Shown here one piece after another: positions 40,470 to 43,536 of a stretch of DNA of 64,000 nt. The notes under the pieces are model-generated. The model searched no databases, was not told where the DNA came from, and saw nothing but the letters and a program-made list of their open reading frames with translations. The position numbers and the translations under genes are program-made. Location of the stretch: positions 1,364,001 through 1,428,000 of the forward strand of contig NZ_CP107913.1 of the NCBI RefSeq assembly GCF_036014115.1, given 5' to 3'. Source of the DNA: Streptomyces sp. NBC_00448 (lineage in GTDB: Bacteria; Actinomycetota; Actinomycetes; Streptomycetales; Streptomycetaceae). Every line of letters begins with the position of its first letter. Positions within the stretch are counted from its first letter, which is position 1.

Positions 40470-42704
40470 TCAGCGCAGCGACTCGGGAAGTGCCTCCCGG
40501 TGCACGATGCCCAGCCGCTGCGTCGCACGGGTCAGCGCGACGTAGAGGTCACTGGTCCCGAACCGTCCGGGCTCCACGACCAGGACGTGGTCGAACTCGA
40601 GCCCCTTCGCCTCGCGCGGGCCGAGCAGCACCACGGACCGGGCGAGGTCGGGTTCCCCGCCTGCCTCGACCCCGTCGAGCCGGGCCGCGATCTCCTCGTG
40701 CAGCGCACGCGGGGCGATCACCGCGAGCCGCCCCTCCTCGGGCGTGAACTCGGCGACAGCCCGCGCCACCGCGCCCGCCAGATCCGCACCGGACTCCCGC
40801 GTCCACGGCCGCTCACCGGTGGACCGCACCGACCCGGGCGGCTCGAACGACGGGTCCTGGGCCCGTACCACCCGCGCGGCCAGCTCCATGATCTCCGCGG
40901 GCGTGCGGTAGTTGACCCCCAGCCGTACATGCGCGAACCGGTCACCGACATACGGCTCCAGGATCTTCTGCCACGATCCGACACCCGCCTCTTCCGAGGT
41001 CTGCACCGGATCGCCGACCAGGGTCAGCGAGCGGGTCGGCGACCGGCGCATCAGCAACCGCCATGCCATCGGGGAGAGTTCCTGCGCCTCGTCGACGATG
41101 ATGTGCCCGAAGGCCCAGGTCCGGTCGGCGGCGGCCCGCTCGGCCGCGCTCCTGTGGTCGATCTCCTCCTGCCGCGCGGCCATCCGATCGGCGTCGACGA
41201 TGTCGTGGGCGGCCAGCACCTCGGACTCGCCGTCCTCGAACTCGTAGGTCTCCGACGCCCGGGACAGCTCCAGCACACCCTGCGCGTAGTCGACCCGCCG
41301 CCGGCGCTCGGCCTCCGCCGCGGCCCGCTCGGCACTGTCGTCGGTCCCGAGCAGTTCGGCCGCCTCGTCCAGGAGCGGCACGTCGGCCGGGGTCCACTCC
41401 CGGTCGCCGGGAGCGCGGCGGACGGCCTCGGCGTCCTCGTCCGCCAGGTACACCGGCTCGGCCAGGTAGTCGGCGAGGAACGCCTCGGGGGTGAGCGCCG
41501 GCCACAGCTCCGCCACGGCGGCCTGCACCTCCTCGCTCGCGGCGACGCCCTTGCCGAGCTGGGCGATGTCGGCAGGACCGAGGAAGTTGGGGCCGCCGTA
41601 CGGGTCCGCGCCGATGCGCTCGGCGAGTTGCGCGGTGAGGGCGTCGATGACGTGGAACGCGAAGTACGGGCGGGCGAGGTTGTGCGGCAGGCGGGTCTCG
41701 CGGGCCGCCTGACGGGCTTCGTAGGCGATCTCCCAGTCCAGCACCAGGTCGCCGTCGTCGTGCCGGATGACCATGGGTGCTCCGGGCTCGGGCATCTGCT
41801 GCCGGTCGCGTACGGCGAGGGCGAGGGCCTCGGCCATCCCCGCACCGCCCTTGACGGCCGCCGCGCGGGGGGTGTCGGTGCCGCGGGCGTCCACACCGGG
41901 GTAGAGCTCGGCCTGCGTGGCGAGCATGACCCCGGTCTCGCCGAGGGCCGGCAGCACCTCGCCGATGTAGCGCAGGAACGCCGGATTGGGCCCCACCACC
42001 AGGACCGCGCGCTTGGCCAGCAGTTCCCGGTGCTCGTACAGCAGGTAGGCCGCACGGTGCAGCGCGACCGCCGTCTTGCCGGTGCCGGGGCCGCCCTCGA
42101 CGACCAGGACCCCGCGGTGCGGAGCGCGAATGACGCGGTCCTGTTCCGCCTGGATGGTTTGCACGATGTCGCCCATCCGGCCGGTGCGGGCGGAACTGAG
42201 CGCGGCGAGCAGCACGGTGTCACCGCTCGGGTCCTCGAAGCCGCTGCGTTCGCGGTCGTCGAGGTCGAGGATCTCGTCGTGCAGCTCGGTCACCGTGCGG
42301 CCCTCGGTGCTGATATGCCTGCGCCGGCGCAGACCCATGGGCGTATGGCCGGTGGCGAGATAGAACGGTCGAGCGACCGGCGCCCGCCAGTCGATCAGAA
42401 CGGGTGTGCGCTCCGCGTCGTCCGCGCGAATTCCGAGCCGGCCGATATGGTGCGTGGCGCCGTCGCGGAGATCAATACGGCCGAAGCAGAGCGAACCGTC
42501 CACCGCATTCAGCGCGGCCAGCAGCCCGGACCGCTCGGCGACCAGCACCTCGCGCTCGACCCGGGCCTGCCGCCCGCTTCCCACCGGGGCCAACGCGTCC
42601 TCGACCCGCTCCGCGGCGGACTCGCGCAGCGTGTCGACACGGCCGTAGAGCCGGTCGAGGAATTCCTGTTCCCGCTCCAATTCGACACTTTCGCGAGTTG
42701 ACAA
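40470..42704 (-). CDS. HelD-like RNA polymerase-associated helicase
   Basis: A 744-residue UvrD-superfamily protein starting at TTG 42704 (AGGGAG 5 nt upstream). The N-terminal coiled-coil helices (SVELEREQEFLDRLYGRVDTL) are the secondary-channel arm of HelD proteins. Motor motifs follow: VEGGPGTGKTAVALHRAAYLL (Walker A), HIIVDEAQELSPMAW (motif II), LVGDPVQTS (motif III), LGVNYRTPAEI (motif IV) and EAKGLEFDHVLVVEP with DLYVALTRATQRL. HelD proteins release stalled or rifampicin-bound RNA polymerase from DNA; a subset (HelR) gives rifamycin tolerance. Two dyads in the upstream region may be control sites. Confidence 0.9.
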   Translation of the reverse strand: MSTRESVELEREQEFLDRLYGRVDTLRESAAERVEDALAPVGSGRQARVEREVLVAERSGLLAALNAVDGSLCFGRIDLRDGATHHIGRLGIRADDAERTPVLIDWRAPVARPFYLATGHTPMGLRRRRHISTEGRTVTELHDEILDLDDRERSGFEDPSGDTVLLAALSSARTGRMGDIVQTIQAEQDRVIRAPHRGVLVVEGGPGTGKTAVALHRAAYLLYEHRELLAKRAVLVVGPNPAFLRYIGEVLPALGETGVMLATQAELYPGVDARGTDTPRAAAVKGGAGMAEALALAVRDRQQMPEPGAPMVIRHDDGDLVLDWEIAYEARQAARETRLPHNLARPYFAFHVIDALTAQLAERIGADPYGGPNFLGPADIAQLGKGVAASEEVQAAVAELWPALTPEAFLADYLAEPVYLADEDAEAVRRAPGDREWTPADVPLLDEAAELLGTDDSAERAAAEAERRRRVDYAQGVLELSRASETYEFEDGESEVLAAHDIVDADRMAARQEEIDHRSAAERAAADRTWAFGHIIVDEAQELSPMAWRLLMRRSPTRSLTLVGDPVQTSEEAGVGSWQKILEPYVGDRFAHVRLGVNYRTPAEIMELAARVVRAQDPSFEPPGSVRSTGERPWTRESGADLAGAVARAVAEFTPEEGRLAVIAPRALHEEIAARLDGVEAGGEPDLARSVVLLGPREAKGLEFDHVLVVEPGRFGTSDLYVALTRATQRLGIVHREALPESLR

Positions 42705-42736
42705 AGCTGCTCCCTACTGGCTAAGCTGTGCCTATC

Positions 42737-42754
42737 AGCCCCCGATGCGGGGCT
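42737..42754. promoter_or_regulatory. AGCCCC...GGGGCT hairpin upstream of the HelD-like gene
   Basis: AGCCCC-6 nt-GGGGCT followed on the plus strand by TTTTCTC, beginning 33 nt upstream of the helicase start. It could act as an operator or leader hairpin for the helicase gene, or as a weak rightward terminator. Confidence 0.5.
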
Positions 42755-42793
42755 TTTCTCATGCGCGCACAGAAAACCTCAATATACGCGAGC

Positions 42794-42827
42794 AAATCCC
42801 CGTTCCGCAATTGCGGTGCGGGGATTT
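42794..42827. promoter_or_regulatory. 34-bp near-perfect palindrome
   Basis: AAATCCCCG-tt-CCGCAATTGCGG-tg-CGGGGATTT; only the two flanking dinucleotides are not symmetric. It lies midway between the helicase start and the rightward gene at 42874. Confidence 0.6.
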
Positions 42828-42873: not shown

Positions 42874-43536
42874 GTGAGCAAGGGGTTGACGGCGGCGCAG
42901 CGCAGGGCGGTCACGGGGTCCGACCCGTCGACGGGTCGGGTGGCCGCCGGAGCCGTGGTGTGCACGGGACTGGTGGCGGCCGGGTTGGCGGTGCGCCACG
43001 GGCGGGCCGGGCAGCACTACCTGACGCCGGAGGGCCGGCGGGTGCGGGCCGAACTGGCCGAGCGCGACGCCCGGGTCGCGCGGGAGGCGGCCGAGGAATC
43101 GGCGCAGGGTGGGCGCACCGAGCCGGAGCGCGGGCAGTTCGTCGCCGACGACGGGTCCGGGACGGTGCGTACGACCGCGGCGCGGCCCGGCGAGGTGGCC
43201 GCCGCGTGGGAGGGGCTGCTCCAGATCCGCGCGGTGCTGGGTGACGGCGCGGTGGAGGTGCCGGCGGGCTGGGAGCGGGAGCGGCCGGTGCACGCGGTGG
43301 CGCTGGCCCTGGAGGCGGCGGGGGTGCCGCCGCACCGCGCCGAGCGGCCGTCGGGGTACCGGGTGGGGCCGTCTGATCATCCGGGCCTGGTCGAGGTGAC
43401 CTGGTCCGAGGCCGGTTCGGGGCCGGCCTCGCTCGCCCGCGTCGCCGCGCTGCTCGGCCCGCTCGGCTGGCAGGCGACCGAGCACCACGCCCGCGGCGGC
43501 GCGCCCTTCCTGCTCGTCTCCCCCCGCCACACCTGA
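42874..43536 (+). CDS. Hypothetical protein with winged-helix-like N-terminus
   Basis: A 220-residue soluble protein from GTG 42874 just after a G-rich site; the reading frame upstream is AT-richer and belongs to the intergenic dyads. LTAAQRRAVTG ... GLAVRHGRAGQHYLTPEGRRVRAEL has the pattern of a winged helix with a terminal wing. The C-terminal 130 residues (WEGLLQIRAVLGDG ... LLGPLGWQATEH) form an alpha/beta domain with no motif I recognise. It resembles conserved Streptomyces hypotheticals. It is divergent from the HelD-like gene and could share its control region. Confidence 0.65.
   Translation: MSKGLTAAQRRAVTGSDPSTGRVAAGAVVCTGLVAAGLAVRHGRAGQHYLTPEGRRVRAELAERDARVAREAAEESAQGGRTEPERGQFVADDGSGTVRTTAARPGEVAAAWEGLLQIRAVLGDGAVEVPAGWERERPVHAVALALEAAGVPPHRAERPSGYRVGPSDHPGLVEVTWSEAGSGPASLARVAALLGPLGWQATEHHARGGAPFLLVSPRHT

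Follow-up and report, generated by a model that had tools for sequence, protein, structure and literature searches.

The locus analyzed here lies in the window, a stretch of 64,000 nucleotides from Streptomyces sp. NBC_00448, and comprises a helD gene, two dyads in front of it and, interleaved with these, the elements of two putative promoters (Table 1). The closest solved relative of the product of 40470-42704 is HelD of Mycobacterium smegmatis (E 8.5e-164), and the original prediction of a HelD-like helicase was right. With homology nearest to M. smegmatis HelD and the presumed PCh loop region present, the protein belongs to class II. The family scores do not support the suggestion that it is of HelR type, as the window HelD falls under the curated cut-offs of both NCBIfam families concerned (688.4 bits against 1100 for HelR_2, 424.3 bits against 750 for HelR), and it reaches 619 bits against 1051 for HelD_MYCSM. 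Among 35 genomes of the window's genus, 14 have this helD (E ≤1e-190), two have HelR over its cut-off and none has both, although these numbers are small. Weak helicase matches with equal scores lie close to either end of the single contig of one genome (G000:C1:7457 and 9641019), which suggests a linear chromosome with terminal inverted repeats.

Table 1. Features of the helD region, with positions in the window.
Feature	Position	Strand	Basis
helD, class II	40470..42704	minus	744 aa, TTG start at 42704; HelD homology and family scores
Putative antisense promoter, -35 (TTGACA)	42698..42703	plus	Reverse complement of helD codons (T)TG-TCA-A; kept in 110/129 upstream regions
Putative antisense promoter, -10 (TAAGCT, spacer 18)	42722..42727	plus	TAnnnT 17-19 nt on in 106/110 regions; shuffle controls
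First dyad, hairpin, proposed terminator of antisense RNA	42737..42754	plus	TTTCT after it; repeat search, folding, terminator scan
Putative sense promoter, -10 (TATATT)	42781..42786	minus	Sequence and alignment of regions picked by this motif; AATATA-like box in relatives
Second dyad (palindrome of 34 bp; putative two-way terminator, sense -35 at center)	42794..42827		Folding, compensatory changes
Putative sense promoter, -35 (TTGCGG, spacer 18, mid-palindrome)	42805..42810	minus	Sequence and alignment

Both dyads were found as originally described. The first is a hairpin with arms AGCCCC (42737-42742) and GGGGCT (42749-42754), six pairs and a loop of six, whose start is 33 nt away from 42704, the first base of the TTG codon on the minus strand. 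Statistically it is modest on its own: the folding energy is -11.2 kcal/mol on one strand and -13.0 kcal/mol on the other (z about -2.2), and 10 and 6 shuffles out of 200, respectively, do as well. A terminator scan over a 901-base stretch returned three terminator-like sites against a shuffle mean of 0.3, two of which are this hairpin. On the plus strand TTTCT comes directly after it. The second dyad, which lies upstream of the hairpin in helD's direction, is the near-perfect palindrome of 34 bp, with 15 of its 17 symmetrical pairs Watson-Crick when read from the sequence, and the repeat search reports it inside a 23-nt arm pair at 83%. Since none of 200 shuffles folds as well as the 51-nt palindrome segment (-31.8 kcal/mol, z -4.95 on one strand; -30.8 kcal/mol, z -5.21 on the other; z thus about -5), this dyad is beyond chance. 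A further small hairpin lies near the assumed sense start, TTTTCT/AGAAAA in the window (42754-42776) and TTTCTGTG ... CACAGAAA in the relatives L004-L010. In an Rfam search every family stayed far below its gathering score, the best one reaching E 0.15 and 15.1 bits where 108 are required, and a known RNA family was rejected for the dyads on this basis.

A rifamycin-associated element (RAE) had also been proposed for the dyads. No exact copy of the motif that we take to represent the RAE, GGnCTTGCnGCAAGnCC, is present in the window's genome, and the dyads are therefore not an RAE. A longer form of the element, searched with up to two mismatches, gave two poor sites in this genome, both away from helD and no more than the reversed control, and a scan within the window gave one site with three mismatches, far off at 2104 and at chance level. 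With neither the exact nor the mismatch search yielding a match, an RAE at the dyads was rejected. The motif as used is sound; at least one exact copy occurs in 25 of the 35 genomes of the genus, where the copies precede frames that begin, by eye, like FAD monooxygenases and glycosyltransferases, and an RAE precedes all four loci of the same family on the HelR side (L020, L022, L024, L026). The fifth HelR-side row of the tree, L025, is from another family and has no RAE. In two relatives, L006 (1218-1234) and L007 (1197-1213), an RAE lies about 280-300 bp ahead of the orthologous helD and is directed away from that gene; next come the worn beginning of a glycosyltransferase-like frame and, after that, an LRV/HEAT-repeat gene. 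The HelD proteins of these two are 86% identical, and the RAE near helD in both is probably that of a single lineage. Within the flanks examined, a motif search places an rgt-/rox-like neighbor beside this helD only in L007, and inspection by eye adds a worn copy in L006.

The putative antisense promoter (42698-42727, plus strand) has its -35 within the first codons of helD and faces helD's own promoter. We compared the upstream regions of 129 helD-family loci, leaving out L113 for its incomplete match, and found the gene start NTG-TCA-A, which is TTGACA on the other strand, in 110 of them (109 of 128 distinct regions, L072 being a duplicate of L009). L116, whose start lies beyond the range scanned, was counted as lacking the antisense -35, and one is visible there by eye. 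The start codon is TTG in 107 of the 110, and the second codon is the rare serine codon TCA, which makes up 2.6% of serine codons in these genes; since L005-L007 use GTG yet keep TTGACA, the first T of TTG lies outside the antisense -35. Because the regions were selected by TTGACA, the -10 provides an independent test. TAnnnT follows TTGACA by 17-19 nt in 106 of the 110 (91 at 18, eight at 19 and seven at 17), and the remaining four (L018, L029, L030, L032) keep two of the three core letters. Elsewhere in the offset range 10-59 no more than three regions match, except for 31 at offset 20, which arise because TATAnT-like boxes overlap themselves. This -10 is present in 84 of 84 Streptomycetaceae regions (shuffle mean 3.02), 12 of 12 from Micromonosporaceae (0.54), six of six from Pseudonocardiaceae (0.18) and both from MAGs (0.26), as well as in two of six from families f2 and f3 of the order (0.26), the full TAnnnT being absent in the other four. 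In the window the box matches TATAAT at only three of six letters, which is why a sigma-70 scan omits this promoter.

Across 200 Streptomycetaceae genomes, the pattern TTGACA-N5..7-CTCC-N6..9-TAnnnT gave 123 matches in 102 genomes. Eighty-eight of these lie at most 86 bp from the start of the helD match, in 88 of the 95 genomes with this helD (E ≤1e-190); the seven helD genomes without the motif are G003, G061, G144, G160, G188, G200 and G222. A looser form of the pattern gave a single match in the window's genome, at helD. The other 35 matches are away from helD, and a near-identical TTGACA...CTCC...TAACGT site occurs off helD in G066, G103, G142, G199 and G203, such that there may be a second conserved promoter of this layout elsewhere.

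On the sense side, 77 of 84 Streptomycetaceae regions have an AATATA-like -10; the near-invariance of TATATT in the alignment is not independent, because the aligned regions were picked by this motif. The two -10 boxes are 53 bp apart in the window, 50-57 bp apart in 69 of those 77 regions and 51-57 bp apart in 10 of 12 Micromonosporaceae regions, and with each transcript assumed to start 7 nt after its -10, the start sites would lie about 41 bp apart in the window, near 42734 (plus strand) and 42774 (minus strand). By eye, the helD leader of family f3 (L029-L032) has a long inverted repeat of its own, GTGCCCGAA ... TTCGGGCAC, which encloses a TATCGT-like box.

Terminator-like structures also occur behind the antisense promoter in relatives. 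Over about 100 nt, antisense terminators were found in 50 of the 110 regions against about 7.4 in shuffles (summed over groups). Proximal ones are present in 12 of 12 Micromonosporaceae regions (shuffle 1.4), 8 of 15 of the Actinacidiphila group (1.45), 12 of 69 of the 'Streptomyces etc' group (1.95), one of six from f2/f3 (0.1), two of six from Pseudonocardiaceae (0.25) and neither of the two MAGs; sense-strand terminators were counted in 33 of the 69 'Streptomyces etc' regions, a raw count apart from the shuffle comparison. By eye, the palindrome is seen in 54 of 62 dereplicated regions, and the eight without it (L008, L018, L073, L074, L076, L103, L110, L142) were dropped before pairs were counted. 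Counted around each region's own axis, with near-loop positions included and for axis groups of at least four regions (49 of the 54), 530 pair cells are the same, 67 differ in both partners but remain Watson-Crick, 24 are G-T and 99 are broken. The stem of L077 is entirely different and still paired at 20 of 20 positions, and the position of the axis differs by a few bp from region to region. RNAalifold on a MAFFT alignment found only three pairs, because these axes are out of register. Since the stems vary yet pair, with A before the palindrome and T after it, a two-way terminator would suit the palindrome better than a protein site, and the first dyad is proposed as a putative terminator of the antisense RNA.

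The 19 regions without NTG-TCA-A are L116, nine outside the clade (L019-L027) and nine inside it (four Nocardia, four Saccharopolyspora and one Actinoallomurus). In a maximum-likelihood tree of 59 rows, all 41 antisense-promoter rows fall in a single branch of 50 (support 98/94), and the RAE-bearing L020, L022, L024 and L026 are outside it, among rows for which the tree program flags long branches. None of the nine rows L019-L027 has the NTG-TCA-A start, unlike the antisense-promoter helD rows.

The elements found here, their conservation and spacing, and the covariation of the palindrome point to a face-to-face promoter pair that would control helD through transcriptional interference, a reading to which we assign a probability of roughly two in three. 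The sense promoter would start helD about 70 nt upstream of the TTG codon, and the antisense promoter, its -35 in the first codons of helD and its spacer over the ribosome-binding site, would fire toward it. The resulting short antisense RNA would stop at the first hairpin or else at the palindrome, which perhaps also blocks read-through into helD from the far side. As long as free, active RNA polymerase is available, helD would be held low by the antisense promoter; once a rifamycin or another inhibitor traps polymerase at initiation, the interference would end and sense transcription would pass, and the HelD then made would rescue RNA polymerase. Several observations count against the promoter pair: the first hairpin of the window starts about 3 nt into the antisense RNA, which is very early for a terminator, the window's antisense -10 has half of the consensus letters and the promoter scan omits it, nine regions within the clade have no antisense -35, four of the six f2/f3 regions have an incomplete TAnnnT, RNAalifold sees only three pairs, and proximal terminators are sparse outside Micromonosporaceae and the Actinacidiphila group.

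Other explanations have been weighed against this promoter pair. A HelD homologue with an inverted repeat upstream invites the reading that the first dyad or the palindrome is an RAE and the gene a HelR, and there is a likeness to the RAE-controlled helR of S. venezuelae and mycobacteria, in that both are class II HelD (the window HelD is 46-47% identical to L024 and L026) and a palindrome overlaps a -35 at the window's helD too. The genome without an RAE match, the HelR score below the cut-off and the placement of RAE-bearing HelR on a separate branch outside the antisense-promoter clade all contradict this reading, and it is almost certainly wrong. The palindrome might otherwise be an operator of RAE-like function and different sequence, where a rifamycin- or stress-responsive regulator would switch helD. 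It overlaps the sense -35, in the same way that the RAE of mycobacterial helD overlaps the -35 of promoter 2 (PMC10719064), and it keeps a fixed place beside the sense -10. However, a bound protein is hard to reconcile with a stem that varies with compensation, as far as the wholly different L077, and with a shifting axis; the core of the palindrome occurs in exact form only once in the genome, on which ground an operator regulon was rejected, and its one-mismatch sites are near the control count. Moreover, the eight regions without a palindrome keep the antisense promoter where listed, and an operator would leave that promoter unexplained. We regard this explanation as unlikely.

It is improbable that the hairpins work from the leader of the helD mRNA, as an attenuator or by stabilizing the message. 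While the first hairpin does lie in the leader, ahead of the start codon, the palindrome is placed ahead of the sense -10 and so outside the proposed helD mRNA, the antisense strand carries the T-run, and the Rfam search gives no support for a leader element. The antisense promoter could also serve a divergent upstream gene, the two promoters merely overlapping back to back, and the window does have a frame at 42874-43536 (plus strand) ahead of it. By crude gene calls, however, the upstream gene is divergent in only 20 of the 110 regions, co-directional with helD in 66 and undecided in 24, and the terminators come after the antisense start. With most callable upstream genes co-directional, a divergent function was rejected and appears very improbable.

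The proposed promoter pair has a counterpart in Bacillus subtilis, where a convergent-promoter rifampicin alarm is known for helD and pps (PMC12802891). As described there, an antisense promoter represses helD and sub-inhibitory rifampicin releases it, the start sites are 39 bp apart, removal of 17 bp abolishes regulation, and two putative terminators lie behind the antisense promoter. The same text sets out the layout as two convergent promoters at most 300 bp upstream, with spacers of 16-20 and 45-100 bp between promoters, and the alarm itself as a stronger antisense promoter, a sense promoter slow to escape and expression raised by antisense mutation. Judged on spacers and distances, the window has this layout, with both spacers at 18 and the -10 boxes 53 bp apart. 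It further resembles the B. subtilis alarm as described in having a helD gene, a putative antisense promoter between the helD promoter and start codon that faces the helD promoter, a similar distance between the predicted starts, and putative terminators behind the antisense promoter. It differs in that the gene is an actinobacterial class II helD, the antisense -35 lies in its first codons, the antisense spacer is 17-19 in actinobacterial regions against 19 in B. subtilis, the window's sense -35 sits inside a palindrome, and the layout is known from sequence. The link to rifamycins in the original prediction therefore persists in another form: the HelD-like gene stands, the RAE falls, and the layout matches that of the B. 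subtilis helD alarm (PMC12802891). By analogy, a polymerase-inhibitor alarm at this helD is conceivable, at slightly less than even odds. According to PMC8655204, only the RAE-bearing one of five S. venezuelae helD genes is rifampicin-induced, which speaks against the rifamycin part of the proposal if a non-RAE helD of that organism belongs to the clade.

PMC12802891 sets Actinobacteria apart as RAE users, and in the literature listed by our searches, mostly openly available papers taken without supplementary tables such as that paper's list of 18,798 genes, we saw no report of a two-promoter alarm at actinobacterial helD. The layout described here bears on what turns on those actinobacterial helD genes that have no RAE. 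We tentatively suggest, with the balance tipped a little against it, that the large non-RAE-HelR branch of actinobacterial class II helD uses a regulator-free sensor of polymerase occupancy, in which any drug or state that traps initiation would switch helD on. Actinobacteria are the group that makes rifamycins; if the proposal is true, the conserved promoter pair of Streptomycetaceae, Micromonosporaceae and Pseudonocardiaceae would bring this group within the reach of the alarm, and if Bacillus and the actinobacteria reached it separately, this would be convergent evolution of a rifamycin alarm.
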